From: Thauera sp.
GTDB lineage: Bacteria > Pseudomonadota > Gammaproteobacteria > Burkholderiales > Rhodocyclaceae
NCBI GenBank assembly: GCA_024235615.1
Contig: JACKMB010000006.1
Location: 62,001-126,000, forward strand
DNA length: 64,000 bases
Reading direction: 5' to 3'
The notes below the pieces were generated by a model. The model made no database searches. It was not told the DNA's origin and saw only the letters and a list, made by a program, of their open reading frames with translations. Position 1 is the stretch's first letter. The number at the start of each line of letters is the position of its first letter. This document shows positions 23,560-58,997 of this stretch, piece after piece. The position numbers and the translations under genes are program-made.

Positions 23560-24068
23560 AGAAGGCCGCACGCATCCCCGCTTCCTGGCTCTACGTCGCG
23601 TTCGGGCTCGCCGCGCATGGCGTCGGACTCCTCCTCGATCCTGCGGTCGCGCAGGTGGCGCTGGCGTCCTTCATCGACATGACGCGCACCATCCTGCCGG
23701 TGCTCGGCCTCGTGTTCGTGCTGATGTACCTGGCCGAGCGCTTCCTGACGCCTGCGCGGACGCGCTCGTGGCTGGGACGGGACTCGGGCACGAAGGGCTG
23801 GCTGCTGGCGCTCGCCGCGGGCATGCTGTCCACCGGGCCGGCCTATGCGTGGTACGGCCTGCTCGCCGATCTGCGCACGCGCGGCATGCGCAGCGCGCTG
23901 CTCGCGGTGCTGCTCTACGCGCGCGCGATCAAGCTGCCGCTGCTGCCGCTGCTCGCGCATTACTTCGGTTTTGCCTACATGCTGGTGCTGTCGCTCTTCA
24001 TCGCGCTCTTTGCCCTGCTCAACGGCTGGGCGATGGAGCGCTTGTTCCCCGAGCCCGAAAACGAATGA
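23556..24068 (+). CDS. Small permease, C-terminal half of a split ArsP/DUF318-like pair
   Basis: A 170-residue membrane protein with four to five helices, including DMTRTILPVLGLVFVLMYL and a GP-containing loop, GWLLALAAGMLSTGPAYAWY. That loop is similar in layout to the GHPVAGY loop of the preceding protein. The two are therefore likely to form a heterodimeric permease with pseudo-twofold symmetry. Its start overlaps the preceding stop and its own stop overlaps feoA (both ATGA), so all four genes from 23068 to 26313 are translationally coupled. Confidence 0.7.
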   Translation: MKKAARIPASWLYVAFGLAAHGVGLLLDPAVAQVALASFIDMTRTILPVLGLVFVLMYLAERFLTPARTRSWLGRDSGTKGWLLALAAGMLSTGPAYAWYGLLADLRTRGMRSALLAVLLYARAIKLPLLPLLAHYFGFAYMLVLSLFIALFALLNGWAMERLFPEPENE

Positions 24069-24307
24069 AACCCGCCCTCTCCACGCTCGACCATCTGTCC
24101 GTGGGCGCAACCGCCGTGGTGCGCGAGCTCGATGGCGGGAACGAATTCTCGGGCAGGCTCGCCGCGATGGGCCTGGTCCTGGGCGCTGCGCTGCAGGTGA
24201 TGCAGAACTCGGGCAAGGGCCCGATGCTGGTGCGGGTGCGCGACACCCGGCTGGCGCTCGGTCGTGGCGAGGCGCAGCGCATCCTGGTCGAGCGGGTGCC
24301 GCCATGA
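24065..24307 (+). CDS. feoA: FeoA-family protein
   Basis: An 80-residue SH3-like protein with the FeoA core: LDHLSVGATAVVREL, then RLAAMGLVLGAALQVMQNSGKGPMLVRVRDTRLALGRGEAQRILV. FeoA is a cytosolic accessory of the FeoB ferrous-iron transporter. It overlaps both the upstream permease gene and feoB by four bases, and no FeoC-like gene follows. Confidence 0.92.
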   Translation: MKPALSTLDHLSVGATAVVRELDGGNEFSGRLAAMGLVLGAALQVMQNSGKGPMLVRVRDTRLALGRGEAQRILVERVPP

Positions 24308-34552: not shown

Positions 34553-34706
34553 TTCGCGCCTGCCGGCGCTCCTACATGAACCCCGAGGCGCGACGGTTTC
34601 CTGTAGGAGCGCCGGCAGGCGCGAATACGGCGCTCCAGCGGTGTCGCGTGCTGCGGCCGCGCTTCTGGCCTCGGGGGTTTATGTAGGAGCGCCTGCCGGC
34701 GCGAAT
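34553..34706. repeat. Three GTAGGAGC-type interspersed repeats between convergent genes
   Basis: Copies at 34553-34576 (inverted), 34602-34626 (direct) and 34682-34706 (direct, with the central GCCGGCAGG replaced by its complement, GCCTGCCGG). The inverted and first direct copy can pair over more than 20 bases, forming a long hairpin between the TlpA gene and the end of the nos operon. It may therefore act as a terminator or 3'-end stabiliser. Confidence 0.85.
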
Positions 34707-34751
34707 ACGGCGGTCCAGCGGCGTCGCGTGCCCAGCTTCGGATCCCGGGCC

Positions 34752-35240
34752 CTACTCGAAGCGCCCTTCGTCCAGCATGACCGGCAGCGTGGCGCTCACC
34801 TCGTCGAAGCGCACGATGCGCGCGCCCTTGTGCTCCTTGAGGAAGTCCGCGGCGTCCTCGGCGCTGGCGAGCGGGACGAACTCGTGCCCCATCGGCCCGA
34901 GCACGTCCGAGCCGACGACGTACCACGCGCCCTTGGCGTCGATTGCCTGCAGGCCGTAGTACTCGGTCACCGCGATGCGCTCGATCTGCTCGCGGCTGTG
35001 GCCGGCGGCGTATTTGCCCGGGTCGTGCCAGAACTTGAACATGTCCTTGGCGCCGTCGAAGAAGTGGGCGTGGCCGTCCTTGTAAACGATGGTCGCCACC
35101 CAGTTGGGGTACTTGGCGGTGAGCATGCCGCATACCGGGCAGAGGTCCTTCGCGCCCGGTTTCGGCAGTGCGGCGGCGGGGGCCTGGGCGAGCGCGAAGC
35201 TCGTCCAGGCCGCGAAGACGAGGGCGAGCAGGGTCTTCAT
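34752..35240 (-). CDS. NosL-domain protein, third copy in the operon (Sec-exported)
   Basis: A 162-residue exported protein with a signal peptide (1-19, ending FALAQ). Its NosL-type metal motif is DLCPVCGMLTAKYPNW (Cys34, Cys37 and the following Met39), and FFDGAKDMFKFWHDPGKY is typical of NosL. NosL proteins are Cu(I) chaperones for NosZ. Unlike the canonical nosL in this operon there is no lipobox. Its start overlaps the preceding stop (ATGA). It is the last gene of the putative 18-gene operon. Function in copper delivery is inferred from the domain. Confidence 0.82.
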   Translation of the reverse strand: MKTLLALVFAAWTSFALAQAPAAALPKPGAKDLCPVCGMLTAKYPNWVATIVYKDGHAHFFDGAKDMFKFWHDPGKYAAGHSREQIERIAVTEYYGLQAIDAKGAWYVVGSDVLGPMGHEFVPLASAEDAADFLKEHKGARIVRFDEVSATLPVMLDEGRFE

Positions 35241-35848
35241 GACTTGTTCTGCTGCTCCATCATCTTGCGCCGACGCTCGGCGCGGTTCTTGCGGATGCGC
35301 GCGACGTCGGCCGACATGTCGGTGTAGGCGGCCAGCAGCGCGCCGTCGAAGTCGGTGAGCTCGCCGCCGTTGGCCGCCTGCGAGGCCTTGGCCGCGTCGG
35401 CGTTGCCGTAGGCGACCTTGCTGCGGGCGGTCATCACGCCGGGCAGCTTGCTGCCGACCAGGAAGCTCGCCTTGTCGACCTCGACGAGCGGCTTGGTGTC
35501 GCCCGCGGCGGCGTTGTCGCCGACCCACAGCGCCTTGGGGTCGCGGTCGATGTTGAGCGACAGGCTGATCGCGGAGCAGTGCAGCGAGCAGGTGCCGTCG
35601 GCGACGTCGTCGGCGTAATGCACGATCATGCGCGAGTGGTGGAACTGCTTGCGGTCCATGCCGCAGTACGGGCACTTGGGATACTTGGCGATGTCGTCGA
35701 CCTGGGGCTGCGGGTCCGGCGCGGTCCTGGGGGTGAACTGCGCCGGCGTGCCGTCGCCCGGGCAGGCGGACTGGGCGTTGGCCTTGCCCGCGACGGCGAG
35801 GCCGATGCTGGCGAGGACGGACATCTTGAGGGCTTCCCTGCGATCCAT
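35237..35848 (-). CDS. NosL-domain protein, second copy (twin-arginine signal)
   Basis: A 203-residue exported protein. MDRREALKMSVLASIGLAVA is a twin-arginine-type signal. The metal motif is YPKCPYCGMDRKQFHHSRM (Cys59, Cys62, Met64) and a second pair occurs in DGTCSLHCSAIS (Cys87, Cys91), so it has more potential copper ligands than ordinary NosL. The C-terminus is a basic charged helix (RIRKNRAERRRKMMEQQ). It lies 94 bases after the TlpA-like lipoprotein gene and is translationally coupled to the next NosL-like gene. A copper chaperone or copper-loading partner is inferred. Confidence 0.82.
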   Translation of the reverse strand: MDRREALKMSVLASIGLAVAGKANAQSACPGDGTPAQFTPRTAPDPQPQVDDIAKYPKCPYCGMDRKQFHHSRMIVHYADDVADGTCSLHCSAISLSLNIDRDPKALWVGDNAAAGDTKPLVEVDKASFLVGSKLPGVMTARSKVAYGNADAAKASQAANGGELTDFDGALLAAYTDMSADVARIRKNRAERRRKMMEQQNKS

Positions 35849-35942
35849 GGCTGGTCTCCTGGGTTGAGTCTGGCTGGTGGATGGGTGAGGCGAGGTGGGT
35901 CCGATCGTGCGCGCGTGCGCGACGGTGCGCCTTGATGAAGGT

Positions 35943-36440
35943 CTAGCGGGCGTCGGGGAGTATGCGCTTCAGCTGCGACATTAGCAGTTTCTGATCCGCC
36001 TCGCCGAGGATCTTCCCGCCGATGCGGCCATCGCGATCGATGAAGTAGGTGATCGGCAGGCCCTGCACGCCGTACTGGCGGGTGATCTTCGAGTCGGGGT
36101 CGAGCAGCGCCGGATAGCCGACGCCGAGCTGGGCGACGAAGGCGGCGGCGGTGGCGCGGTCCTGGGCGACATTCACCGCCAGTACCACGAGGCCGCTCGC
36201 CGCGTGCTCGCGCTGCAGGCGATCGATCTGCGTCATGCTGTTGGCGCAGTAGCGGCACCAGTCGGCCCAGAAGTCGAGGACCACCGGCTTGCCGGCGAAG
36301 TCCTCGGGGAAGCGATGCAGCTTGCCGTCGAGGTCCGTCGCCTCGAAGCGCGGTGCCGCGCTGCCCATCTTCGGGCCGGTGTCGGGTGCGCCGCAGGCCG
36401 CGAGCAGGGCGCAGGCGAGGGCGAGCAGGAAGGATCTCAT
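35943..36440 (-). CDS. TlpA-like thioredoxin-fold lipoprotein
   Basis: A 165-residue protein with a lipoprotein signal (ALLAAC, lipidated Cys16). Its thioredoxin/AhpC-TSA-type domain has DFWADWCRYCANSMTQ (Cys62, Cys65) and QGLPITYFIDRDGRI as the cis-Pro loop. The CRYC active site is unusual for TlpA proteins, which mostly have CxPC, so redox potential or metal binding may differ. Some ScoI/ResA relatives handle copper. ATG 36440 is preferred to the GTG at 36449 because GAAGG is well spaced. It starts 13 bases after the polytopic membrane protein. Confidence 0.85.
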   Translation of the reverse strand: MRSFLLALACALLAACGAPDTGPKMGSAAPRFEATDLDGKLHRFPEDFAGKPVVLDFWADWCRYCANSMTQIDRLQREHAASGLVVLAVNVAQDRATAAAFVAQLGVGYPALLDPDSKITRQYGVQGLPITYFIDRDGRIGGKILGEADQKLLMSQLKRILPDAR

Positions 36441-36453
36441 CGGTGGCACGCCT

Positions 36454-37464
36454 TCACTCGAGCAGGATCAGGTTGGAGCTCAGCACCATGAAGCTCGCCA
36501 CCGCGAGGAAGAGCGCGAAGCCCGCCGCGGCGATGCCGGCCAGGCGCGCGCTCGCCTGCGGCGCCAGCGTGGCGAGGCTGGGCCGGCGCGCGAACAGGGT
36601 CAGCACGCCGGCCGCCAGTCCCGCGGCGGCGGCGGCGAAGAGCGGGACGTAGAGCAGGTAGCCCTGGTAGTCGTATTCCGGCTTGAGGATGCAGAACGGG
36701 CAGTGGTGGTGCGGGTGCTCGTAGATGTAAAGCGACACGAAGGCGACGATGCCCATCAGCGCGGCGAAGAAGGCGACCACGGAGGACGCGCCCACCGCGA
36801 GCCCGCTCCACACCCGCCGCCCCGCGCCGCGCCAGTGCCACAGCGCGAGCAGCACGGCCGTACCCAGGCCGGCGTAGAACAGCGCGATGGCCTGGCGCGG
36901 CGCCATCGCGCTGACCTCGCTCGCCACCGTGTCGGCCTCCTCCGAGAACATGCTGCCGCAGCACGAGGTGATCACGTCGGCCTCGAGGCGGATGAAGTAG
37001 TTGAACTGCAGGTACAGCACCAGCGCGGCGAGCGGCGCGTAGGCGAGCAGCAGCACGTACTTGAGGCGGGTGAGCGGATAGTCGCGCGCCTGGTTGTCGA
37101 GGCGGTTGATCGCCAGCCAGGTGGAGGCGAAGAAGAACAGCGCGAGCTGCGCGTAGAGCGCCGGGAAGCCGTAGGCGTTGGCGTTGAGCGCGCCCACCGC
37201 GCACATCGCGCCGACGAACATCACCGACATCTTGTCGGCGTTGAACACGAACAGCAGCGTCGACAGGATCTGCAGTCCGCACACCAGCGCCACCATCATC
37301 GAGAACAGGTAGGTCAGGCGCTCGAGGCGCAGCTGGCGCTCGCTGCCGCTGCCGAGGTCCCAGTGGCGGATCAGCTGCACCGCGAAGGGCGAGGCGGTCG
37401 CCAGCATGGCCAGGCTCAGGCCGGCGGCCAGCAGCAGGGCGATGATGGCGGGCTGGAAGATCAT
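36454..37464 (-). CDS. Polytopic membrane protein with His-rich CxxC site, nos-linked, unknown function
   Basis: A 336-residue protein with about eight hydrophobic helices. I do not recognise a named family. Potential metal or thiol sites are Cys168-Cys169 in ITSCCGSMFSEE and HPHHHCPFCILKPEYDYQG (His run 250-254, Cys255, Cys258), each in a loop between helices. The CPFC pair next to three to four histidines looks like a copper-binding or thiol-redox centre. Its start overlaps the ABC ATPase stop (ATGA), and a TlpA-like lipoprotein and two NosL-like proteins follow, so a role in copper or thiol handling with the ABC transporter is plausible. Confidence 0.75.
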   Translation of the reverse strand: MIFQPAIIALLLAAGLSLAMLATASPFAVQLIRHWDLGSGSERQLRLERLTYLFSMMVALVCGLQILSTLLFVFNADKMSVMFVGAMCAVGALNANAYGFPALYAQLALFFFASTWLAINRLDNQARDYPLTRLKYVLLLAYAPLAALVLYLQFNYFIRLEADVITSCCGSMFSEEADTVASEVSAMAPRQAIALFYAGLGTAVLLALWHWRGAGRRVWSGLAVGASSVVAFFAALMGIVAFVSLYIYEHPHHHCPFCILKPEYDYQGYLLYVPLFAAAAAGLAAGVLTLFARRPSLATLAPQASARLAGIAAAGFALFLAVASFMVLSSNLILLE

Positions 37465-38159
37465 GGCCAGGCCCTGCGCGTGTCGACGACCTCGATGAGC
37501 TGGCCGTCGCGCAGCGAATACACCCGGTCGACCACCTCGGACTCCACCACCAGCGGGTCGTGGCTGGTGAGGATCACCGTGCGCCCGGCCTCGGCCAGCC
37601 GCCGCAGGATGGCGAGGAATTCGGCCGAGAGCTTGCTGTCGAGGTTGGCGGTGGGCTCGTCGGCGACGAGGATCTCGGGGTCGTTGATGAGCGCGCGGCA
37701 GATCGCCACGCGCTGCTGCTCGCCGCCGGAGAGCCACTCCACCTTGGCGTCGCGGCGGTGCGAGAGCTGCATGTCGGCGAGCAGCGCCTCGGCGCGCTCG
37801 ACGAGCCGCGCGCGCGGGGTGCCGGTGGGATAGCCGGGCAGGATGATGTTCTCGATCGCCGACAGGCCGCGCACCAGGTTGAACTGCTGGAAGATGAAGC
37901 CGAAGGTGCTGCGGCGGATTTCGGTGAGGAAGCGCTCGGGCAGGCCGGAGATGTCCTCGCCCTTGAGCCGCACCCGGCCCTCGGTGGGGCGGGCGAGGCA
38001 GCCGAGGATGGTGAGCAGCGTGGTCTTGCCCGAGCCCGAGGGGCCCTTCAGCACGTTGACGCGCGCGGGCGGGATCTCCAGGTCGATGCCCTTGAGCGCC
38101 CAGTATTCGTTGTGTTGGCCCTGGTTGAAGGCCTTGCGGATGTTGGCGAGTTCGAGCAT
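37461..38159 (-). CDS. ABC transporter ATP-binding protein (MacB/LolD type)
   Basis: A 232-residue nucleotide-binding subunit: Walker A GPSGSGKTT, Q-loop FQQFNLV, signature LSGGEQQRV, Walker B ILVADEPTANLDS and switch His in LTSHD. The sequence is closest in style to the MacB/LolD/FtsE branch, which works with FtsX-like permeases to drive periplasmic mechanotransmission rather than classical transport. Four bases separate it from the permease gene upstream, and it overlaps the downstream membrane protein by four bases. It is clearly distinct from NosF, so the operon has two ABC systems. Confidence 0.92.
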   Translation of the reverse strand: MLELANIRKAFNQGQHNEYWALKGIDLEIPPARVNVLKGPSGSGKTTLLTILGCLARPTEGRVRLKGEDISGLPERFLTEIRRSTFGFIFQQFNLVRGLSAIENIILPGYPTGTPRARLVERAEALLADMQLSHRRDAKVEWLSGGEQQRVAICRALINDPEILVADEPTANLDSKLSAEFLAILRRLAEAGRTVILTSHDPLVVESEVVDRVYSLRDGQLIEVVDTRRAWP

Positions 38160-38163
38160 CGCG

Positions 38164-39300
38164 TCAGCTCCGCATCACGGTGTCGGGGTCGGTGGTCGCC
38201 GCACGCCAGATCGGCACCAGGGTGGCGGCGGTGTAGGGCAGCACCGAGAACACGAACAGCGTGGCGACCTGCAGGCCGTCGATCTTCGGCGTCAGCGCGA
38301 AGCTCGGGTAGAGCACCGCCCAGCCCTGCAGCACCGGCGCGAAGAGCGCGAACTCGAAGTGGAACACGTGCACGTAGGCGGCGACGTAGCCGAGCAGGAA
38401 GGCGAGCAGCGAGACCAGGAAGCCTTCCCAGAACTTCATCGCGATCACGTCCCCGGTCTCCCAGCCGATCGCCTTGAGGATGCCGATCTCGCGCTTCTCT
38501 TCTGCCGAGAGGCCTGCGGCCTTCTCCCAGGCGAAGATGCCGAAGGCGAGGATGGCGGCCGACAGCAGGGCCAGCATCATGCCCTCGCGCCAGTCGAAGA
38601 TCGACGCGTAGGTGCGCAGCACTTCCTCGCGCAGGATGGGGCGCGAGTCGGGCAGGGCGTTGATCAGCTTGAGGCCGACGTTGCGCACCTCCTGCGGGTT
38701 GGCCACCCACAGCGCGATGTCGGTGTAGTGGCCGTCCGGATAGGCGAAGAAGCGGCGGAAGTCGGCCTCGCTCATCAGCACCAGGTCGGCATTCACCAGC
38801 TCGGACTCGTGCGCCAGCACCTCGCTGACGATGAAGGTGTGGAGTTCGCCCGAGTAGGCGCGGAAGGAGATGCCGTTGCCCTCGGCCAGTCCGCGCGAGC
38901 GCTCGAGTGCGGGGCCGACGACGATCTCGCCCTCGGCGATCCGGCGGTCGCTCGGCACCATGAAGGTGTAGTTGGCCTTGAGCACGCTGTCGTAGTAGTA
39001 GCCCCACAGCCGCCCCTCGATCTTCTGCACGCCGCGCACGCGACCGATCTTCTCGATGTAGCCGGGCGGGATGAGGTCGTGGCGGCCGGCGATGAGGCGC
39101 TGCAGCACGACCTCGGGGGTGCCGGCGAGCACCCGGGTGGCCTCGTTGCGCAGCGCGTGGGTATACAGCGACACCGAGGCGAGGACGAACACGAGCAGGG
39201 TGTAGACGACCAGCAGGCCGAGGCTCTTGCCCTTGCGCCGCGCCAGCGAGCTGGCGGTGAAGTCAATCAGATGGCGCTGCTTCTCGATCCAGCGGTTCAT
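38164..39300 (-). CDS. ABC transporter permease (FtsX/MacB type)
   Basis: A 378-residue protein with the MacB/LolE topology. One N-terminal helix (GLLVVYTLLVFVLASVSLYT) is followed by a large periplasmic domain (about 50-235) and three C-terminal helices (from MMLALLSAAILAFGIFAWEKAAG onward). The cytoplasmic coupling region EKREIGILKAIGWETGDVIAMKFWEG is typical of FtsX permeases. The partner ATPase follows at once. The MacB family can extract lipoproteins or export peptides and heme-like cargo; here the cargo is unknown. Its start lies inside the preceding small gene (38-base overlap). Confidence 0.88.
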   Translation of the reverse strand: MNRWIEKQRHLIDFTASSLARRKGKSLGLLVVYTLLVFVLASVSLYTHALRNEATRVLAGTPEVVLQRLIAGRHDLIPPGYIEKIGRVRGVQKIEGRLWGYYYDSVLKANYTFMVPSDRRIAEGEIVVGPALERSRGLAEGNGISFRAYSGELHTFIVSEVLAHESELVNADLVLMSEADFRRFFAYPDGHYTDIALWVANPQEVRNVGLKLINALPDSRPILREEVLRTYASIFDWREGMMLALLSAAILAFGIFAWEKAAGLSAEEKREIGILKAIGWETGDVIAMKFWEGFLVSLLAFLLGYVAAYVHVFHFEFALFAPVLQGWAVLYPSFALTPKIDGLQVATLFVFSVLPYTAATLVPIWRAATTDPDTVMRS

Positions 39301-39595
39301 GGCGGTCCAGCAGGAGGGCGGGGGGCGGAAGCAGCGAGCCCGAGGGGAAGTGCTCGAGCGCCACCGGGTGGTCCTGGAAGGCGGAGTGCAGGTCGGCCTG
39401 GCTGAGGTGGCGGGTGTAGCGCGCCTCGGTGAACAGCACGAGGTCGGACAGGCGCAGGTCTTCGACGAGGCGCTCGGTGCGCTGCAGCGCCGGCTCGTGC
39501 GCGTCGCGCCGGATCCCCGCGTCCACGAAGGTGGCGGCGAAGAGCGCGGCGGCGAAGAGCGTGAAGGCGAGCACGCGGTCGGAGGGACGGCTCAT
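39263..39595 (-). CDS. Small membrane-anchored periplasmic protein, unknown function
   Basis: A 110-residue protein. One N-terminal helix (VLAFTLFAAALFAATFVDAG) probably anchors or exports it. The rest is hydrophilic, with a charged segment RRDAHEPALQRTERLVEDLRLSDLVLF and a striking Tyr/His/Pro-rich region (ARYTRHLSQADLHSAFQDHP, then LEHFPSGSLLPPP). I do not recognise the family. It is tied to both neighbours: ATGA overlap with the UbiA-like gene upstream and a 38-base overlap with the FtsX-type permease downstream. This tight packing supports a real gene that works with the permease. Confidence 0.72.
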   Translation of the reverse strand: MSRPSDRVLAFTLFAAALFAATFVDAGIRRDAHEPALQRTERLVEDLRLSDLVLFTEARYTRHLSQADLHSAFQDHPVALEHFPSGSLLPPPALLLDRHEPLDREAAPSD

Positions 39596-40551
39596 GCCAG
39601 CAGGCCCGCGGCGCCCAGCCCGATTGCGAGCAGGAGGCCGGAGAGGTTGGCGGCGGCGATGGTGTCGCGGATCGGCGCCACCAGGCGGGCGGGATGCTCG
39701 GCGTCGGCGAGCAGCGCGCGCGCGGCCCGCACCGAGAACACCAGCGGCAACAGGGCGAGCGCTGTGCCGGCCGGCACCGCGCCGACGGCGAGCGCGCCCG
39801 CCAGCCAGAGGTGGGCGAAGGCGACCAGGGCCACGTAGCCGCGGCTGGCCGTACGCGGGCCGAGGCGCACCACCACGGTGCGCTTGCCCGCGGCCTCGTC
39901 CGCACGCCGGTCGGGGAACTGGTTGATGTACAGGATCGCCGCCACCAGCAGCGCGAAGGGCAGCCCGGCGACCAGCGGCAGGGCGGCGAGCTCGCCGCGC
40001 TGCACGTAGTCGGTGCCCAGCACCACCAGCAGCCAGCCCGCGGTGATGGCGAGTTCGCCCATGCCGCGCGACATCAGCTTGAAGGGCGGCGCCGAGTAGG
40101 CCCAGGCCACGAGCAGGCCGGCCAGCCCGATCGCGAGCAGGCCGGGGCCGGCGCCGAGGGTGAGCCACAGCCCGCCCGGGATCACCGCGGCGAGCAGCAG
40201 GTAGCCGAAGCGGCGCATCTCGGCCAGGCTCAGGTAGCCGTTCTGGATGAAGCGGCTGCCGCCGGTGTAGGGGTGGAGCAGCTCGGTGTTGAGCGCGTCG
40301 GTGCCGTTGAGGGCGTCGAAGTAGTCGTTGACCACGTTGGCGCCCGCGTGGGCGACGAGCGCGAACAGGATCGTGACCAGCGCGCGTGCCCAGTCGATCG
40401 AGAGCCCGTCGGCGAAGGCCGTGCCCAGGCCGATCAGCGAGCCGGCGAAGGTCACCGTCAGGAAGGCCGGCCGCGTCGCCGCGAGATAGCGCGCGAACGC
40501 GTTCGGGAACGGATCGCGCACGGGTTCGGCGAGGGACTTGTCGACGCTCAT
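39592..40551 (-). CDS. UbiA-family prenyltransferase (MenA-like) inside the nos operon
   Basis: A 319-residue, about nine-helix membrane enzyme of the UbiA superfamily. Both Asp-rich Mg-prenyl-diphosphate motifs are present: NVVNDYFDALNGTD (first, from residue 73) and INQFPDRRADEAAGKRTVVV (second, about 215-230). The second motif and GGSRFIQNGYLSLAEM favour the MenA-like (1,4-dihydroxy-2-naphthoate prenyltransferase) branch over UbiA proper or heme O synthase, but this is a judgement by eye. It starts 16 bases after nosY. Prenyltransferases are not part of the described nos machinery, so its presence suggests quinone tailoring for N2O respiration. Confidence 0.87.
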   Translation of the reverse strand: MSVDKSLAEPVRDPFPNAFARYLAATRPAFLTVTFAGSLIGLGTAFADGLSIDWARALVTILFALVAHAGANVVNDYFDALNGTDALNTELLHPYTGGSRFIQNGYLSLAEMRRFGYLLLAAVIPGGLWLTLGAGPGLLAIGLAGLLVAWAYSAPPFKLMSRGMGELAITAGWLLVVLGTDYVQRGELAALPLVAGLPFALLVAAILYINQFPDRRADEAAGKRTVVVRLGPRTASRGYVALVAFAHLWLAGALAVGAVPAGTALALLPLVFSVRAARALLADAEHPARLVAPIRDTIAAANLSGLLLAIGLGAAGLLA

Positions 40552-40567: not shown

Positions 40568-41395
40568 TCAGGGCAGGTCGCCGCGGCGGAAGACGAGGAA
40601 GCCGAGCGCCGCGCTCACCACGCCGAGCGCCGCGGGGTAGGCCACCGCGAAGACCTTGTAGCCGGCGACGCCGAAGAGGTCGAGGATCACGTAGGCCGAG
40701 GGGCCCAGCACGATCAGCTGCGGGTCGAACATCGACAGCGCGGCGGTGCGGAAGACCTGCAGCGGGTTGGCAAGCGCGATCGTGACCGCGAGCTCGGGCG
40801 AGATGCGCTCCTGGATCATCACCCCGAGCAGGATCAGGTCGAGGAAGAGCAGGAAGAGCAGCCACGCCAGGAAGGCCGCGCCCTGGGCGACGTCGGTGCT
40901 GCGTGCGATCGACGAGATCAGCATGCCGAAACCGAGGAAGCACATCGCCATCGCCGCGATCAGCGCGGTGTAGTAGGCGAACATCTCCCACGGCACCTCG
41001 ATGTCCTGCACCGTCGCCCAGCCCACCGCGAGCAGCATCGCGGCGAACACCGGCATGAAGATCACGATGTAGCGGCCGACGAACTTGCCCCAGAACCAGG
41101 CCCACAGCGAGACCGGCAGCGACAGCAGGTATTCGAACACGCCGGCCTCGCGGTCGCCCGCCACCGAGCGCACCGTGGTGATGAGCACGAAGATCGGCAG
41201 GATGGCCATGGTGAGCTGGATGTAGGTGACCAGCAGGCGCGACAGGCCGATGAAGCCGAGCACGCGCGATTCGGTCAGGCCGAAGAGGAAGAGCAGGGCG
41301 ACGATGCCGCCGAACACCAGGGTGTAGACCTGGAACCAGCGGGCGCGGAGCGACTCGACGATGTCCAGACGTGCGGTGAGCCAGAACTGTTTCAT
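40568..41395 (-). CDS. nosY: NosY, ABC permease for NosZ copper-site maturation
   Basis: A 275-residue ABC-2-type permease with six helices. It begins MKQFWLTARLDIVESLRARWF and includes VRSVAGDREAGVFEYLLSLPVS, the conserved NosY cytoplasmic coupling segment. NosY pairs with NosF (ATPase) and periplasmic NosD, and the complex drives assembly of the CuZ sulfide-bridged copper cluster. It starts five bases after nosL. In many nos loci nosY precedes nosL; here the order is nosF-nosL-nosY. Confidence 0.93.
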   Translation of the reverse strand: MKQFWLTARLDIVESLRARWFQVYTLVFGGIVALLFLFGLTESRVLGFIGLSRLLVTYIQLTMAILPIFVLITTVRSVAGDREAGVFEYLLSLPVSLWAWFWGKFVGRYIVIFMPVFAAMLLAVGWATVQDIEVPWEMFAYYTALIAAMAMCFLGFGMLISSIARSTDVAQGAAFLAWLLFLLFLDLILLGVMIQERISPELAVTIALANPLQVFRTAALSMFDPQLIVLGPSAYVILDLFGVAGYKVFAVAYPAALGVVSAALGFLVFRRGDLP

Positions 41396-41400
41396 TTGCC

Positions 41401-41889
41401 TTATTTTCCCTTCGCCAGCGTCTGCTGCCGCATTTCCTCGAAGCTCACGCTGTCCGTGGCGGAGTCTGCCGCGGCGGCGTAGTTGTAGCCCATCGGCGAG
41501 GTGCGGGTGATGTAGCGCACCTTGCGCGGGTCGTGCCAGATCATCTCGTCGCGGCTCTTGCTGTTGTAGTCCGCGACCCACATCCGAGTGGCGGCCTCGG
41601 CCATCCACGGGAAGCGCTCGCGCTTTTCCTCCAGCCAGAAGACGAGGCAGCCCGGATCGTCGAACTTGAACACGGTGTCCTTGGGACCGCCACGCAGCTC
41701 GGCGGCGAAGCGGCGGTCCGAGATCGCCATGTTGCAGCGCACGCAGGTGTCGCGGTCCCAGATGATGGATTTCATGCCCTCGGGCCACTTGTCGTCGGTG
41801 CAACCCGACAGCGCGGCGGCGAGCGGCGTGAGCAAAAGCCCCCCTTTCGCCAGGCGTCCGATGAACTGGCGTCGATGCTGGTCGCACAT
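41401..41889 (-). CDS. nosL: NosL, copper chaperone lipoprotein
   Basis: A 162-residue protein with a twin-arginine-like signal (HRRQFIGRLAKGGLLL) ending in a lipobox (LSGC, Cys30), so it should be a Tat- or Sec-exported lipoprotein. The Cu(I) site is RDTCVRCNMAISDRRFAAE (Cys49, Cys52, Met54), with Asn in place of the usual Gly before Met. FKFDDPGCLVFWLEE follows as in NosL. It lies between nosF and nosY with gaps of two and five bases. NosL delivers Cu(I) to NosD for NosZ loading. Confidence 0.92.
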   Translation of the reverse strand: MCDQHRRQFIGRLAKGGLLLTPLAAALSGCTDDKWPEGMKSIIWDRDTCVRCNMAISDRRFAAELRGGPKDTVFKFDDPGCLVFWLEEKRERFPWMAEAATRMWVADYNSKSRDEMIWHDPRKVRYITRTSPMGYNYAAAADSATDSVSFEEMRQQTLAKGK

Positions 41890-41891
41890 GG

Positions 41892-42749
<858 letters not shown>

Positions 42750-42804
42750 CTATCGACTCTTGTTATGTGTTGCGGAATCACCGGGGTTGGGGGCCCGGGC
42801 TGCC

Positions 42805-43782
42805 TCACAGCAGCTTGGACAGCCCCTTGACTTCGAAGCTCAGCGAGCCGGTCGGGCACGCGTCCACGCACAGGCCGCAGCGTGTGCAGTCCGGGCCGAG
42901 CGGCACCTCGGGCTCGACCGCGCGGCCCTTGATGACGGTGTCGAGCACGTGCGGCACCAGGCAGACCTTGCGACAGTCGCCCTCGTGGAAACAGCCCTCC
43001 AGCTTGTACTTGATGCGCACCGGCGAGATGATGCCGACCACCCCATAGGTCAGGCCGATCGGGCAGGCGTAGCGGCACCAAGCCCGGCGCGAGAAGAAGA
43101 CCTCGAACACGAGCAGGGCCACGACCCACAGCAGCGACAGTCCCGCACCGTAGATCAGCGCGCGCGACAGGATACCCGTCGGTGAGATGGCCTCGAACAC
43201 GGTGTAGCCGGTCACCACGGCGAGCAGCGCGAACACGATCCAGAACACGGAACGCAGGCGGCGGTCGATCGGCTGGTCGGTGACCAGCTTCTTCTTGGCC
43301 AGGTACAGGTGGATCTTCTCCGCCCATTCCGCAACCAAGTGATACGGACACACCCAGGAGCAGAAGGTTCGCCCGCCGAGCAGGGCCCACAGCAGCAGCA
43401 CGGTGGCGGTGCCGATCAGCAGGTTGGTGATGATGTGCTTGTGCGCGAGCATCACCTGCAGCGCGGAGTTGAGGTCGGCCATGTGGAAGCCGACGAAGCG
43501 CGACGCGGTGAGCGCGCCCTCGAGCACCTGGATGTCGAGCCAGTAGGAGAACACGAACAGCAGGTTGGCGAAGATCAGCGTCGCCCAGCGGCGGTTGCGC
43601 CACTTGTGGCTCGGCTTCTCGTGCGCGCGGCGGTGCTTGAGCTCGGCGATCTCGTCGCGGTTGTTCTTCTTGTAGAAGTGGATCTTCTGTGCGGCCGGGG
43701 AAATCTCGGCCGGCTTCGCGGGTTCCTTGCCGAACATCACCTTGATCTGGTCGATGAAGCGGCGGGTCAGCAGCTTGCTCAT
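42805..43782 (-). CDS. nosH: NosH, NapH-like membrane Fe-S quinol-oxidising subunit
   Basis: A 325-residue inner-membrane protein with four to five helices. Two CxxxCP motifs face the cytoplasm (RTFCSWVCPYHLVAEW and RAWCRYACPIGLTYG), and a C-terminal 4Fe-4S ferredoxin site lies in CTRCGLCVDACPTGS. This is the NapH arrangement. In clade II nos clusters NosG/NosH replace NosR in passing menaquinol or ubiquinol electrons toward NosZ. The charged N-terminal extension (1-65) is longer than in NapH. Starts at ATG 43782, overlapping the nosG stop (ATGA). Confidence 0.92.
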   Translation of the reverse strand: MSKLLTRRFIDQIKVMFGKEPAKPAEISPAAQKIHFYKKNNRDEIAELKHRRAHEKPSHKWRNRRWATLIFANLLFVFSYWLDIQVLEGALTASRFVGFHMADLNSALQVMLAHKHIITNLLIGTATVLLLWALLGGRTFCSWVCPYHLVAEWAEKIHLYLAKKKLVTDQPIDRRLRSVFWIVFALLAVVTGYTVFEAISPTGILSRALIYGAGLSLLWVVALLVFEVFFSRRAWCRYACPIGLTYGVVGIISPVRIKYKLEGCFHEGDCRKVCLVPHVLDTVIKGRAVEPEVPLGPDCTRCGLCVDACPTGSLSFEVKGLSKLL

Positions 43783-44642
43783 GATTTCCACACCTCACGC
43801 GGGATGATGGTGATCGAGGCGGGTTCGGTCGGGCAGATCATCTCGCACACGCCACAGCCGACGCAGTTCTCGTGCACGATCGGACGTGCACGCGTCTTGC
43901 CGTCGGGGCCGGTGAATTTCTCCAGCGAGATGGCGCCGGCGATCGGGCATTCGCGCATGCACAGGTCGCACAGCGGCAGGTCGTAGGGGTGGTCGGCCAC
44001 CGGGATGGGCTTCCAGCGATCCACCTTGATGTAGCGCATCGTGCCCTTGAAGTCGGGGCCGCGGGCCTGGCCCTTGAAGCCCTCGCCCTTCATCGCGAGG
44101 CAGGACTCGGGACGGGTGAGGCGCGCCACGCCCATGCGCTCGGTCATGTTGAGCGTGGGCTCGGGGTCGTTCATCTTGGCGATGAGGGTGGGCTTCTGCG
44201 ACAGTGCCGCGCCCTCGCGTACCGGCAGGAAGTCGGGCTTGTGATAGGTCAGCGAGCCGGTCGGGCAGGCGAGGATGCACTGTACCGCATCGCAGGAGAA
44301 GTCGCAGGCCTGCGCGCGGGCGTCGATGTAGGGCACGCCCACGCCGAAGCCGTCGATCAGGTCGGCGAGCTTGATCGCGTTGACCGGGCACACCTGCACG
44401 CACTGGCCGCACTTGATGCAGGACGAGAGGAAGTCCTTCTCGTCGAGTGCGCCGGGCGGGCGCAGGCGGTTGGTACGCGCATAGACCAGCGGCAGGTAGC
44501 CGGACAGGCCGGAGCCGAGCACGCCGCCGGTCAGCAGGATGGTACGCAGAACCTTGCGCCGGCCCTGGCGCGCGCGTTCGCGCGAGACCGGCACCTCGCC
44601 CTTGGCGGGCGCGGCTGCGGGGGTGTTTTCCTTCTCGCTCAT
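43779..44642 (-). CDS. nosG: NosG, NapG-like periplasmic ferredoxin
   Basis: A 287-residue protein with a twin-arginine-type signal (QGRRKVLRTILLTGGVLGSG). Four 4Fe-4S clusters are predicted from CIKCGQCVQVCPVN, CDAVQCILACPTGS, CDLCMRECPIA and CVGCGVCEMICPTEP, a NapG-type layout. NosG docks on NosH and relays electrons from quinol to the periplasm. ATGA overlaps tie it to nosD upstream and nosH downstream, so the three should be made in step. Confidence 0.93.
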   Translation of the reverse strand: MSEKENTPAAAPAKGEVPVSRERARQGRRKVLRTILLTGGVLGSGLSGYLPLVYARTNRLRPPGALDEKDFLSSCIKCGQCVQVCPVNAIKLADLIDGFGVGVPYIDARAQACDFSCDAVQCILACPTGSLTYHKPDFLPVREGAALSQKPTLIAKMNDPEPTLNMTERMGVARLTRPESCLAMKGEGFKGQARGPDFKGTMRYIKVDRWKPIPVADHPYDLPLCDLCMRECPIAGAISLEKFTGPDGKTRARPIVHENCVGCGVCEMICPTEPASITIIPREVWKS

Positions 44643-46021
44643 GATGCACTCCCTTCGATGCGCCGCTCCGGCTTGATGTAGAGGGGCTTTTCGTCCCTTG
44701 CCTGCAGGTCGGGGGTCGAGAACGGCGCGAGGCGCTCGAGGAAATCGAGCAGTTCGAGGACGGGCGAGGTCTTGAAGAAGCGTGCGTTGGGGATCTCCAT
44801 CCAGATCCGGTCGGCGTAGGCATATTCTTCGTGCGGGGTGTCGCCGGCGCCGTCCTCGTCGCGGTCGAACCCCTGGTAGGTGTCGAAGTAGTTCCCTTCC
44901 CACTTGTTCTTGACGCCTTCGCCCCGTCCGGCCTGGTACATGTCGGTCAGGTTGCCCTCGAAGGTGTTGCCGTACATCTCGTTGCCGCCGAGTTCGCTGG
45001 TGAGCTGGATGGCGATGCCGTTGAACGCGAAGCGGTTATTGACGAAGCGGATGGTGGTGTCGGGCTGGAAGGGCGAGAGGTCGGAGCCGACTCCCACCGC
45101 GCAGTAGATGACCTCGTTGTTCTCGAGCAGGATGTCCGAGGACTCCTTGAAGCCCAGCCCCATGCCCGTGGCGCCGGTGGCGTGCGAGATGATGTTGCCG
45201 CGCGCCGCGCCGCCCTCCATGTACATGAAGTAGACGCCGACGGCGTTGTCGTAGAAGCGGTTGTTCTCGACGATGTTGTCGTTGGCGAACATGAAGTGGA
45301 TCGAGTAGCGGCTGCGCCGGCCCTCGTTGCCGCGGTAGATGTTGCGGTGCGAGTACCACGCCACCATGTCGCGGGTGTCGGTGACGAGGTTGTTCTCGAT
45401 CAGGTTGTCGTGGCTGTACCACAGGCGGATGCCGTCGCCGCGCACGCCGAGCTCGAAGTCCTTCGACCGCACCTTGTTGTTGCGCACGATGTTGTGGTCG
45501 GCCTGCTTGAGGTCGATGCCGAACAGGCAGTCGGCGATGTTCAGGTTCTCGACCAGGTTGCCGTGCCCGCGGATGTTCAGGCAGGTGTCGTCGGAGTCGT
45601 GAGACTCGCCCGAGCCGGTGATGGTCAGGTTGCGCAGCGTGGCCTCGTTGGTCTCCAGGACGAAGACCGTGCCCTTGTCGCCGCCGTCGATGACGACCTC
45701 GCCCTCGCCCTCGATGGTCAGGCGCTTCTTCAGATGCACCGGCCCGGAGTAGTGGCCGGCCGGGACCTTGAGCACGCTGCCTTCCGGGGCTTTGTCGACC
45801 AGCTCCTGGAAGGGCTGCAGGCCGTGGATGCGCTTGTCGCGCAGGTAGAGCGGGATCAGCTGGACCGGCTTATGGACGTCGACCCGCGGTGCGGTGGAGA
45901 AGTCGGCGCCGGAGCCGGGCCCACGGGCCTGGTCCTCATCGTCGCTGTCCCGGGCCTGGGCCGCGGGCAGGGCCAAGGCCACTGCCGCGGCGAGCAATGT
46001 CAAGCGGTGAAGGAGGCTCAC
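44639..46021 (-). CDS. nosD: NosD, periplasmic copper-site assembly protein
   Basis: A 460-residue exported protein: signal peptide 1-23 (ending AAQA), an acidic stretch, then a right-handed beta-helix of CASH/NosD repeats (about 60-420) with many Asn-rich turns such as NIRGHGNLVENLNIADCLFG, NLIENNLVTDTRD and NDNIVENNRFYDNAVGVYF. NosD accepts Cu(I) from NosL and, with NosF/NosY, builds CuZ in NosZ. The start is GTG at 46021 with only a distant Shine-Dalgarno match; nosB ends 12 bases upstream, so re-initiation may help. Confidence 0.94.
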   Translation of the reverse strand: MSLLHRLTLLAAAVALALPAAQARDSDDEDQARGPGSGADFSTAPRVDVHKPVQLIPLYLRDKRIHGLQPFQELVDKAPEGSVLKVPAGHYSGPVHLKKRLTIEGEGEVVIDGGDKGTVFVLETNEATLRNLTITGSGESHDSDDTCLNIRGHGNLVENLNIADCLFGIDLKQADHNIVRNNKVRSKDFELGVRGDGIRLWYSHDNLIENNLVTDTRDMVAWYSHRNIYRGNEGRRSRYSIHFMFANDNIVENNRFYDNAVGVYFMYMEGGAARGNIISHATGATGMGLGFKESSDILLENNEVIYCAVGVGSDLSPFQPDTTIRFVNNRFAFNGIAIQLTSELGGNEMYGNTFEGNLTDMYQAGRGEGVKNKWEGNYFDTYQGFDRDEDGAGDTPHEEYAYADRIWMEIPNARFFKTSPVLELLDFLERLAPFSTPDLQARDEKPLYIKPERRIEGSAS

Positions 46022-46033
46022 GAGGGGGCATCC

Positions 46034-47029
46034 TTACCGTGCGCTGCCCTGGGCCTGCTCCTCGCGCAGCTGCTTACGGCGCAGCAGCAGGGCGAGCATC
46101 AGGCAGACGAAGACGACCATCAGCAGGCCGTAGCCCCAGTGCGGATAGGAGTAGGTGGAGAACTGCGCCACCTTGCCCTCGCCGAACACCGTGGGCATGA
46201 AGGGCTTGACCGTGAAGGCGCCCCAGGGGTGCAAGTTGTGGCCGAAGAACCACAGCCAGCCGGAGTACTCGATCAGGTAGAAGATCGGCAGCAGTCCGGG
46301 AATCAGCGCGAGCAGCAGCTCGAAGTTGCGCAGCTTGAGCACCCCGAAGATCACCACGCCCATGGCGGCGATCATGCCGAAGATGGCGACCTTGGAGATG
46401 ACCTCGACGTTCTTGCCCCAGGCGGCGATGCGTTCGGGGTCGTTGAAGAAGGTCGCGGACTCGTCCATGTAGTGCTTGACGTGCGCGGCGAGGTTGCCCA
46501 TGACGAACTGGTCCACGATCATCCATGCGGCCAGACCGCCGAAGCCGACGCCCATGATGCCCAGGCGCAGCTTGCGGTCGCGCACCGCGAAGGTGAGCAG
46601 CATGACCGCGAAGAAGGCGACGAAGAACTTGGAGAGCTTGGTCTCGACCGGACCGCCGGTGGCGATCGGGTACATGCCGACGTAGTGGTTGATCGTGTTC
46701 ATCTCATGAACGCAATCGAGCGCGGTGGCCTTGCCGGTCAGCGTGGTCTGCTCGGCGAGAATCGGGTTGTAGCGGCCGGTGCCCTCGCCCATGTCCTCGG
46801 CCATGGTCTCTTCGGCGAGACGCGAGGTCTTGGGCGGCGTGGAGCAGCCGTTCTTGACGCCATCGAAGTGGAAGTGGATGCGGATGCCGTCGGGGAAGGC
46901 GTCTTCGGGGTAGTTCGGGGCGGTCAGCGATACCCACCACAGGGGTGCGAAGTAGGCGGCGACCAATGCCACCAGCGCCACGAACGTGAGGCCGGCGATC
47001 AGGCCGTTCTTGTTTTGGGTTGCGGACAT
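46034..47029 (-). CDS. nosB: NosB, membrane protein characteristic of clade II nos operons
   Basis: A 331-residue protein with an N-terminal helix (NGLIAGLTFVALVALVAAYF), a large periplasmic loop of about 100 residues containing two cysteines (GCSTPP and LDCVHEMNTINHY), and about six further helices. It fits NosB, found with clade II nosZ and required for N2O respiration in Wolinella, with an undefined role in electron transfer or maturation. ATG 47029 has GGAG at seven bases. A stem-loop (47066-47098) lies in the gap before it. Confidence 0.85.
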   Translation of the reverse strand: MSATQNKNGLIAGLTFVALVALVAAYFAPLWWVSLTAPNYPEDAFPDGIRIHFHFDGVKNGCSTPPKTSRLAEETMAEDMGEGTGRYNPILAEQTTLTGKATALDCVHEMNTINHYVGMYPIATGGPVETKLSKFFVAFFAVMLLTFAVRDRKLRLGIMGVGFGGLAAWMIVDQFVMGNLAAHVKHYMDESATFFNDPERIAAWGKNVEVISKVAIFGMIAAMGVVIFGVLKLRNFELLLALIPGLLPIFYLIEYSGWLWFFGHNLHPWGAFTVKPFMPTVFGEGKVAQFSTYSYPHWGYGLLMVVFVCLMLALLLRRKQLREEQAQGSAR

Positions 47030-47065
47030 TTCGAGCTCCGGTCGCAAGGGGAGGGGTTGGAAGCC

Positions 47066-47098
47066 CCGGGGGCGCGCGAGAATGTGCGCGCACCCCGG
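47066..47098 (-). promoter_or_regulatory. Intercistronic stem-loop between diheme cytochrome and nosB
   Basis: CCGGGG-GCGCGC pairs with GCGCGC-A-CCCCGG with a single bulge, giving a very stable hairpin with no T-tract. It sits in the 104-base gap before nosB and is likely an mRNA-processing or stability element rather than a terminator. Confidence 0.55.
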
Positions 47099-47133
47099 TG
47101 CGAGACGGGCGGTACGGCTGTGGTCTCAGCGGC

Positions 47134-47847
47134 TTACTTCTTGTCGCCGCACATCGAGCCCGGCATCTTCAGGCTGGCCTGGTAGGCGGAGATCGCCACC
47201 AGCTGGTCGTCGGTGTAGGGCTTGATGACCTTGACCATGTCGGGGTTGGCATTGCGGCGGTGGCCGTCGCGGATCTCGGTCATCTGGCGCAGCAGGTACT
47301 TGTAGTGCTGGCCGGCGATGACCGGGTAGAACTTGGCCTTGTCGCCGGCGCCGGTGTCACCGTGGCATTCCTTGCACTGCTTCTCGTAGAGGTCCTTGCC
47401 CTTGGCGACCTGCATTGCGGCGTCGGCGCCCTCGTACTTGCCATGGTCGGTCGGGATGCACAGGCTCTCGATGTAGGCGGAGACGTCGGCCAACTCCTGC
47501 GGGTCGACCAGGGTCGCAGCGAACGGGTACATCGTCGGGTTGTCGCGCAGGCCGGCGCGGATGTCGGCCATCTGCTTGATCAGCACGGTGGTGTGCTGGC
47601 CGGCGAGTTGCGGGAAGGTGCCGTCGGGGCGGCCGGCGCCGGAGGGCAGGTGGCAGGCGCCACAGACCTCGTAGGCTTCCTCGCCGCGGGTGATGTCGCC
47701 CTTCTTCTGCAGGGCTTCGATCTTTTCGCCTTCCTGGGCGTTCCAGACATAGCCTTCACCTTCGATGCCCGTCTTCTTCGGGGCGGGAGGGCCGGCGAAG
47801 GCGACGCTGGCGGAGAGGAGGGCGGCAAGCAGAACGGTGATCTTCAT
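47134..47847 (-). CDS. Periplasmic diheme cytochrome c (c4-like) of the nos operon
   Basis: A 237-residue exported protein with a signal peptide (1-18, ending AFAG) and two class I cytochrome domains: CGACH (residue about 62) with axial-Met region NPTMYPF, and CKECH (about 157) with a second domain ending in KMPGSMCGDKK. The layout is that of cytochrome c4 or NosC2-type proteins. Encoded right behind nosZ and the monoheme cytochrome, it is the likely electron carrier to the CuA site of NosZ. Confidence 0.92.
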   Translation of the reverse strand: MKITVLLAALLSASVAFAGPPAPKKTGIEGEGYVWNAQEGEKIEALQKKGDITRGEEAYEVCGACHLPSGAGRPDGTFPQLAGQHTTVLIKQMADIRAGLRDNPTMYPFAATLVDPQELADVSAYIESLCIPTDHGKYEGADAAMQVAKGKDLYEKQCKECHGDTGAGDKAKFYPVIAGQHYKYLLRQMTEIRDGHRRNANPDMVKVIKPYTDDQLVAISAYQASLKMPGSMCGDKK

Positions 47848-47905
47848 GATTTTGGTCCTCTAGGGGATTGGGACGGAGGGGGGGCGGTCCGTCAATGGGC
47901 TCGAT

Positions 47906-47931
47906 CTGCCGGGCACCGGGGTGCGCGGCAG
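47906..47931 (-). promoter_or_regulatory. Intercistronic stem-loop between the two cytochrome genes
   Basis: CTGCCG...CGGCAG closes a hairpin with an inner GCACC/GGTGC stem, in the 93-base gap between the monoheme and diheme cytochrome genes. No T-tract follows on the minus strand. Confidence 0.5.
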
Positions 47932-47940
47932 CGTGGAGGC

Positions 47941-48249
47941 TTACTTCAGGCTCTCGAGCCAGATGGCGATCGCCTTGATCTCTTCGTCGTTGACGAGGTG
48001 CATCACGCCCTTCATCGCCGCGGTCTGGCCGTTGTTGCGCGCGCCGCTCTTGATGTCCTTCATCTGCTGCTCGGCATAGGCCGCGTTCTGGCCGGCGAGC
48101 TTGGGATAGGTGGGCAGCAGCGGCTTCTTGGCGTCGGCGCCGTGACAGGCGTTGCAGGTCTTCTCGGCGTAGAGCTTGGCGCCGTCGAGGGCGGCGAAAG
48201 CGGGGGCGGACACCGTGGCCGCCAGCAGCAGGGAGACGATCAGCTTCAT
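47941..48249 (-). CDS. Periplasmic monoheme cytochrome c of the nos operon
   Basis: A 102-residue class I cytochrome c with a signal peptide (1-19, ending PAFA), one heme site (KTCNACHGADAKK) and an axial Met in AAMKGVMHLVND. The C-terminal helix IKAIAIWLESLK is typical. Equivalent small cytochromes (NosC1-like) are encoded beside clade II nosZ, while in Wolinella a cytochrome domain is fused to NosZ itself. Likely hands electrons to NosZ or the diheme partner. Confidence 0.92.
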   Translation of the reverse strand: MKLIVSLLLAATVSAPAFAALDGAKLYAEKTCNACHGADAKKPLLPTYPKLAGQNAAYAEQQMKDIKSGARNNGQTAAMKGVMHLVNDEEIKAIAIWLESLK

Positions 48250-58754: not shown

Positions 58755-58997
58755 TTCGCGCCTGCCGGCGCTCCTACACGGGCCATCACGCCTCCGCCTC
58801 ATGCAGGAGCGCCGGCAGGCGCGAACGACAGCGTCTCCGCCTCATGCAGGAGCGCCGGCAGGCGCGAGCGGCAGCGCTCCGCCCCATGTAGGAGCGCCGG
58901 CAGGCGCGAACGACAGCGTCTCCGCCTCATGCAGGAGCGCCGGCAGGCGCGAGCGGCAGCGTCTCCGCCTCATGTAGGAGCGCCGGCAGGCGCGAAC
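58755..58997. repeat. Cluster of six GTAGGAGC-type repeats, five in a 42-43-bp tandem array
   Basis: One inverted copy (58755-58778) precedes five direct copies starting at 58802, 58845, 58887, 58930 and 58973. Unit spacing is 42-43 bases; the 18-base filler (ACGACAGCGTCTCCGCCTCA or a variant) is also repeated. The array fills most of the 358-base gap 58690-59047 between convergent genes. No gene is seen there. Confidence 0.9.

Follow-up and report, generated by a model that had tools for sequence, protein, structure and literature searches.

The operon for nitrous oxide (N2O) reduction of a Thauera species continues past nosY through eight further genes, and the question raised by this locus is whether these genes are an accessory of that operon or a system of their own that was joined to it. 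The locus lies in a window of 64,000 nucleotides, which is the whole stretch of DNA that was analysed (assembly GCA_024235615.1, contig JACKMB010000006.1, positions 62,001 to 126,000). The open reading frames (ORFs) and a check of the sequence placed eight minus-strand genes directly after nosY, from 40551 down to 34752, exactly where the original prediction had put an unbroken series. Its view of the whole series as a single accessory of that clade II operon was not supported: the first gene, encoding a UbiA-family prenyltransferase, is separate from the rest, the others are mostly unlinked to the reductase gene nosZ, and they are also found with clade I NosZ only.

Judged by comparison with relatives, the other seven genes (39595-34752, from the small protein to NosLc) are a conserved cell-envelope module, with UbiA outside it. 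They encode a small protein, an FtsX-type permease, an ATPase of the ATP-binding cassette (ABC) type, a polytopic protein that we call Mem, a TlpA-like protein and the NosL-domain proteins NosLb and NosLc, the NosL of the nos operon being called NosLa. We give a probability of about one half to the reading that this module is an ATP-driven periplasmic copper-delivery machine with NosL-type chaperones, joined to the clade II nos operon via UbiA and having NosZ as its commonest client. It resembles a copper machine of more general use which, in this genome, became attached to N2O respiration. Copper limitation is described as leading to N2O release by cells, copper supply limiting N2O reduction (PMC6530538), and a conserved module with two unnamed families that is enriched in N2O reducers of both clades offers concrete genes for a copper route to NosZ beyond NosL and NosDFY.

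Conservation and gene neighbourhood

In the family sample of 150 genomes Mem was found in 27, a number that includes the window's own genome and G044, whose weak partial match (31%, containing a stop) was dropped before counting. The genes for the small protein, FtsX, the ATPase and Mem are contiguous and in the same order in each of the 25 family relatives. When 84,980 species genomes were scanned, 450 stretches matched, and the best 80, to which all counts of loci below refer, were kept; they are skewed to the Rhodocyclales and several lie on short contigs. The ATPase was present in 79 of these loci, FtsX in 75, the small protein in 70 and TlpA just 3' of Mem in 63. Rows with a stop, or under a set length or identity, were removed from alignments and trees.

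The fullest and commonest neighbourhood has the order C17-Sco-small protein-FtsX-ATPase-Mem-TlpA-C10-C9-CopA-DsbD_2 protein-NosLb-NosLc, with an OprC-like TonB receptor in some loci (C9, C10 and C17 are cluster labels of this analysis). CopA was found in 45 loci, Sco in 44, NosLb in 41, the DsbD_2 transmembrane protein in 40, NosLc in 37 and the OprC-like receptor in 8; these counts use identity limits, and with weak matches included receptors reach 11 and NosLb 45. Of the 80 loci, 74 have at least one of these six genes, and so does each of the 36 whose flanks measure 9 kb or more on either side. Outside the family, the class and phylum samples contributed 15 loci, and 13 of them had matches to NosLb, NosLc, CopA or DsbD_2. 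The family calls were made on one representative each, CopA passing TIGR01511, Sco PF02630 and the DsbD_2 protein PF13386. The window's own genome has a Sco on a different contig. Copper is a well supported common theme of the module's neighbourhoods, the exceptions being six of the 80 loci, L160 among them, and G348 and G217. No Mem match was found on any plasmid of the collection searched, and no published description of the module was found in the open-access literature, subscription papers and preprints being outside that search.

The receptor, counted where its identity to one representative was 45% or higher, recalls the TonB-dependent copper import for NosZ by NosA/OprC: the representative aligns to OprC and has its CxxxM stretch (ACxNxM in common). 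It differs in missing the TonB-copper cut-off (84 against 472 bits), and it scores higher with haem-receptor models, likewise below cut-off; the window's genome has only two weak receptor matches (best E 5.8e-15 at 31% identity). In four loci (L065, L066, L067 and L077) a NosLb-like gene was seen beside a TonB receptor with FecI/FecR-like neighbours, named by eye, and the receptor of L066 exceeds the siderophore-receptor cut-off.

Co-occurrence with nitrous-oxide reductase

NosZ was scored as present at E<=1e-20 and as clade II when over the TIGR04246 cut-off, the window's own genome being excluded. In the family, 21 of the 25 module genomes have NosZ, against 63 of the 124 others (Fisher test, p 0.0016), and for clade II NosZ the figures are 16/25 against 21/124 (p 4.8e-6). 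The class sample gave 5/10 against 57/358 for any NosZ (p 0.015) and 3/10 against 17/358 for clade II (p 0.013). In the phylum sample Mem occurs in 7 of 398 genomes and, excluding the own genome and G019, NosZ accompanies it in 4 of 5. Under this strict rule 30 of 40 sampled carriers possess NosZ. G001 and G008 were scored as negative in the tests; in the former the nos operon runs toward the contig end and in the latter there are two NosZ fragments of 42 residues, and both look like assembly breaks.

Eight genomes (G103, G033, G108, G348, G357, G528, G543 and G583) combine Mem with only a NosZ below the clade II cut-off, full-length matches at 440-484 bits being taken as clade I. The module is enriched in NosZ genomes of both clades, yet independent of clade II NosZ. 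Because this co-occurrence is above background and linkage to nos genes is seen in several arrangements, a functional tie of the module to N2O reduction is likely. The expectation of the original prediction that the genes would accompany clade II nosZ was borne out as enrichment across genomes, while clade II nos genes stand inside just 11 of the 80 loci. The observation named as speaking against it, that the block is common in genomes without nosZ, proved true in part, for 8 of the 40 carriers, with co-occurrence still above background. Since NosL-domain genes were also found in genomes in which no NosZ was found, a nosL gene by itself should not be taken to indicate N2O reduction.

Linkage to nos operons and history of the Thauera locus

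The 11 loci with clade II nos genes (at least 50% identity, flanks reaching at most 10 kb) show diverse arrangements. The module is fused downstream of these genes in two Thauera loci (L089 and L092) and lies upstream of nosZ, on the same strand and abutting it, in L160; it is convergent to them in L158 and divergent in L139, L142 and L157, while in L134, L145, L150 and L153 it shares their strand at a distance of about 8-10 kb. In Azoarcus taiwanensis (L101, with L064 judged from its length to be the same contig) the module and a NosLa copy end a nos operon of clade I type. In most relatives' loci the module lies away from nosZ.

For the reverse view, we selected 20 clade II operons from the 38 family genomes over the cut-off, omitting G069, G117 and G001, which were already known to carry the module, either on the strand of nosZ at a distance of some 16-18 kb or next to the nos operon. 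The block was seen in none of the 20, of which 15 were read for at least 8 kb past nosY, four for 0.9-6.6 kb (L202, L206, L213 and L217), and one, L219, had nosY unmatched. The window's order of the genes cytB to nosF is kept in 19 of them, L219 being unmatched from nosF on.

In three further Thauera loci, from T. aminoaromatica S2 (L090), a metagenome-assembled genome (MAG) of Thauera (L091) and T. phenolivorans ZV1C (L094), the left flank can be aligned with the window as far as about 53,650, and similarity returns with a NosLa copy (DNA identity 72-74%) and the block (86-87%); nosZ to nosF, nosY and UbiA are therefore absent there. The three NosLa copies form one clade (support 100/100), sister to the NosLa of Thauera nos operons (98/92 jointly), and this Thauera group is nested in the tree among NosL proteins of clade II operons. 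Most simply, a fused ancestor would have lost its nos genes and retained NosLa and the block, while insertion with replacement would also be compatible with this pattern. The NosZ of T. aminoaromatica and of T. phenolivorans is of clade I type, and none was found in the MAG, which may be incomplete; with three Thauera loci devoid of clade II nos genes, the block is thus kept without clade II NosZ.

These observations bear on the idea of a dedicated accessory, evolved with the clade II enzyme and serving only it or its electron donors. That idea would account for the unbroken gene order here, in L092 and (without UbiA) in L089, for the abutting module of L160 and for the clade II enrichment in the family. 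It conflicts with the eight genomes whose NosZ is taken as clade I only, with the retention of the module at those Thauera loci from which clade II nos genes are absent, with the carriers that have no NosZ and with the block being unseen in the 20 operons of our selection, and we consider it highly improbable. Specificity of the module for clade II was rejected, being contradicted by the distribution.

UbiA shows a different distribution. A strong match (55-62% identity) follows nosY and a TlpA-like gene in 4 of the 20 clade II operons, all without the block in the stretch read, and UbiA also follows nosY in G069, G001 and G117. The fused operon of Thauera UBA6194 (L089) has no UbiA, and at 50% identity or more it was found in just 5 of the 80 module loci. 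Its membership of the module was rejected on the counts from the 20 operons and the 80 loci, and by its gene context UbiA is best described as a nos-side addition of some clade II operons.

Two other features of the 20 operons deserve mention. A TlpA-like gene with 27-36% identity to the window's TlpA follows nosY in 17 of them (L202-L212, L214-L218 and L220); to our knowledge, such a gene is absent from the standard nos gene list. Moreover, L202 (G106) has two clade II nosZ copies, at 8966 and 16961, whose proteins are 98% identical, and paired clade II nosZ genes with equal scores against the hidden Markov model occur in G019, G080, G023, G029 and G088; in these six genomes the copies are about 4.7-8 kb apart, a recurring tandem duplication.

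Proteins of the block

UbiA, FtsX, ABC_tran, AhpC-TSA and, twice, NosL were the Pfam families whose cut-offs were passed. NCBIfam likewise pointed to UbiA, FtsX, an ABC ATPase and a TlpA/ResA-like protein, the two NosL assignments coming from Pfam. UbiA scored 94.9 bits with PF01040 (gathering score 34.2), and its identification as a proven MenA was rejected, the best of the MenA models giving 127 against 264 bits and TIGR00751 72 against 102.

LolCDE, MacB and FtsEX are type VII ABC systems, which work by mechanotransmission. FtsX of the block shares with them the C-terminal permease domain (PF02687, 35.5 against 25.5 bits) and matches the solved LolC with E 5.8e-8 across residues 161-377, and the ATPase is nearest to MacB, FtsE and LolD. 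The block differs from these systems in its scores, which are below the curated cut-offs, in the pairing with Mem and the small protein and in the copper gene context. It might nevertheless be a Lol-like system for lipoprotein release that sorts the lipoprotein chaperones NosLa, TlpA and Sco, as would agree with the likeness of FtsX to LolC and of the ATPase to LolD and with the lipobox-like signals seen by eye on TlpA and NosLa. Scores far under the LolCE (50 against 362 bits) and LolD (176 against 308 bits) cut-offs speak against such a role, no lipobox was seen by eye in the signal peptides of NosLb and NosLc, and Mem would be left unexplained, so that we think it very unlikely.

The window's Mem and small protein had no family match in Pfam or NCBIfam. 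Loose Pfam scans with homologues taken singly (55 small proteins and 28 Mem) gave scattered matches in one or two members, and TM_HPP (E 0.00072, one of the 55 small proteins) and TgpA_N (E 0.0011, one of the 28 Mem) were taken as chance. As far as searched, the two appear to be unnamed protein families. The small protein has the conserved stretch LFTEARYTRHxxQADLHSAxQDHPxxxEHFPxGS (71 rows); since its AlphaFold2 model is confident in the first helix only (predicted local distance difference test, pLDDT, 67; predicted template modelling score, pTM, 0.39), it was not put to a fold search. For Mem eight membrane helices are predicted (model pLDDT 78), and no solved fold was found with Foldseek at E<=0.001; a sequence profile gave one match to a solved structure, at E 1.5, and neither outcome was given weight.

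In the 28 Mem sequences, the window's own and those sharing 42-87% identity with it, M87 and C88, C168 and C169, and H253, H254, C255 and C258 are invariant. Mean charges are net positive for loops 3, 5 and 7, neutral for loop 1 and net negative for loops 2, 4 and 6, and by the positive-inside rule the last three are predicted to be periplasmic. All the invariant cysteines and histidines, and M87, sit in these loops, on one predicted side. From their conservation, Mem and the small protein are candidates for copper binding.

TlpA reaches 88.7 bits with PF00578 (cut-off 26), carries the active site WADWCRYC, with W61, C62 and C65 conserved to 93% or more across 53 rows, and misses the ResA cut-off (106 against 170 bits). 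NosLb and NosLc pass PF05573 (41.2 and 109.5 bits, gathering score 24), and NosLc matches the solved NosL 7og7 with E 1.2e-9. Their CxM motifs, C62 G63 M64 in NosLb (40 rows) and C37 G38 M39 in NosLc (35 rows), are at least 93% conserved, and this motif of NosL is assigned to Cu(I) binding (PMC6530538). NosLa of the nos operon itself stays under the PF05573 gathering score (19.4 against 24 bits), whereas NosLc of the block reaches about 110.

The strongest rival to the copper-delivery reading starts from the thiol proteins. Mem could be a membrane thiol-disulfide relay that supplies reductant to TlpA and Sco and so keeps the copper-site cysteines of clients reduced, the ABC pair exporting or regulating the reductant. 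The frequent TlpA, Sco and DsbD_2 genes of the module loci favour this, as do the invariant C168 C169 and C255xxC258 of Mem in predicted periplasmic loops. The same loops, however, hold invariant histidines and methionine too, the CxM NosL-domain proteins and the CopA-type ATPase are as frequent as Sco, and 17 of the 80 loci, some from contig ends, are without TlpA just after Mem. We regard a redox relay as rather unlikely.

Proposed function

In the copper-delivery reading, FtsX and the ATPase would combine with the small protein and Mem into an ABC complex of type VII (MacB/LolCDE-like), in which ATP hydrolysis would drive motion on the periplasmic side. Cu(I) may pass between NosLb or NosLc and the cysteine, histidine and methionine sites of Mem, or onward to client enzymes, while TlpA would keep cysteines reduced. 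NosZ of either clade would be the commonest client, and carriers without NosZ would have to use the module for something else. By analogy, it would all work like NosDFY and NosL, built from other protein families; every step of this mechanism is conjectural. Going further, the module might be a second ABC copper-insertion machine, undescribed so far, in which a type VII transporter and two new families take Cu(I) from NosL-type chaperones and load several cuproenzymes, NosZ of both clades included, and which in Thauera was wired into the nos operon; this is a possible but tentative extension, in which we place clearly less trust. Of the original prediction, a second copper-related pathway that often accompanies NosZ is supported by the copper context and the NosZ enrichment, whereas a role confined to clade II nos is not.

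Several points weigh against the copper-delivery reading. FtsX and the ATPase are under every curated LolC, LolD, FtsE and MacB cut-off (the two scores not given above being 188 against 265 bits for FtsE and 190 against 966 for MacB), and the sites of Mem rest on conservation and predicted topology, parts of all three loops being of low confidence in the model. With the stricter limits, six of the 80 loci are left with none of the copper genes: five short contigs (4-12.5 kb) and L160 (18.4 kb), whose module is the one adjoining clade II nosZ. Copper-gene matches are likewise missing from G348, with 19.5 kb read, and from G217, which was read for 9 kb on one side and ends with its contig on the other. 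Relatedness was left uncorrected in the Fisher tests. Among the 40 carriers eight have no NosZ (G066, G090, G217, G283, G285, G312, G396 and G518), with completeness of 87% for G066, 86% for G090 and 94-100% for the other six; a COX2 match was found in three of the eight and not in five, and none of the eight passes the NirK cut-off. The five without COX2 also weaken CuA assembly as a task common to NosZ and cytochrome oxidase, which had been considered.

Comparison with known systems helps to place the proposal. NosDFY receives copper from NosL (PMC13068155; PMC7558416), and this route to the CuZ site of NosZ has, like the module, an ABC pair with a periplasmic partner and a NosL-type Cu(I) chaperone, encoded with nosZ (PMC7558416, PMC6530538). 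The module differs in that its ABC pair is of FtsX/LolD type whereas NosFY is of ABC-2 type, in being without NosD, in its two unnamed families, in standing beside NosDFY in the window and not replacing it, and in that most of its copies are away from nosZ. With the Sco/PCuAC/TlpA pathway for CuA sites the usual module island has Sco and TlpA in common, and Paracoccus mutants in senC2 and pcuC are described as reducing less N2O at low copper (PMC7558416); the module adds an ABC complex, and most of its NosZ-less carriers are without a COX2 match. A NosDFYL locus without NosZ in Parageobacillus is another NosL-ABC relay possibly serving a different recipient (PMC13068155), although that locus is a NosDFY set and the module is not.

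Gene layout in the window

The features are collected in Table 1; the names cytB-cytA-nosB-nosD-nosG-nosH-nosF, assigned from order and sequence, are those which we take to apply. The junctions read in the sequence agree in all respects with those predicted. There are 4-base ATGA overlaps between UbiA and the small protein, the ATPase and Mem, and NosLb and NosLc, and an overlap of 38 bases between the small protein and FtsX; the gaps are 16 bases for NosY/UbiA, 4 for FtsX/ATPase and 13 for Mem/TlpA (ATG start), the exception being the 94 bases between TlpA and NosLb. A consensus scan found no promoter- or terminator-like site at the nosY/UbiA junction. On the minus strand it gave a single match in this region, a stretch at 37150 within the Mem gene that resembles a terminator. 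Overall it found 10 terminators where 8.3 are expected and 1 promoter where 1.4 are, numbers that chance would give.

Pairwise ratios of nonsynonymous to synonymous substitution (dN/dS) were 0.11-0.46 for all comparable block genes against Thauera L089, L090 and L092, that of UbiA being computed against L092 only, and together with the order kept in relatives they argue that the ORFs of the block are real genes and not chance. The nearest named loci are from Thauera, and L088 (T. phenylacetica B4P) is 95.4% identical to the window in DNA over 10.4 kb.

Table 1. Genes and repeats of the nos operon and the adjoining block (window positions)
Feature	Position	Strand	Basis
nosZ, clade II (Sec-dependent) nitrous-oxide reductase	48347..50638	-	TIGR04246, 910 bits (cut-off 625)
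cytB, cytA, nosB, nosD, nosG, nosH, nosF (presumed names), upstream of block	41892..48249	-	ORFs, order in family operons
NosLa, nos-operon NosL	41401..41889	-	Operon position, tree; lipobox-like signal by eye, CxM motif
nosY, ABC-2 permease	40568..41395	-	PF12679, 82 bits
UbiA-family prenyltransferase, nos-operon add-on outside the conserved module	39592..40551	-	PF01040
Small protein, one N-terminal membrane helix, 110 amino acids	39263..39595	-	ORF, alignment
FtsX/LolC-type ABC permease	38164..39300	-	PF02687
MacB/LolD/FtsE-type ABC ATPase	37461..38159	-	PF00005, 105 bits
Mem, Cys/His protein (HHHCPFC) with eight predicted transmembrane helices, 336 amino acids	36454..37464	-	ORF, prediction, alignment
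TlpA/ResA-like thioredoxin-fold lipoprotein	35943..36440 (alternative GTG start 36449)	-	PF00578; lipobox by eye
NosLb, NosL-domain protein, CPYCGM and CSLHC motifs	35237..35848	-	PF05573
NosLc, NosL-domain protein, CPVCGM and GPMGH motifs	34752..35240	-	PF05573
Inverted repeats like repetitive extragenic palindromic (REP) elements, immediately 3' of block	34565..34711		Sequence

Elsewhere in the window, a feoA/feoB-like pair for iron transport, named by eye, lies on the plus strand at about 24000-26313. The REP-like inverted repeats (GTAGGAGCGC and its complement) recur at 8667-8838, 10330, 34565-34711 and 58767-58984.

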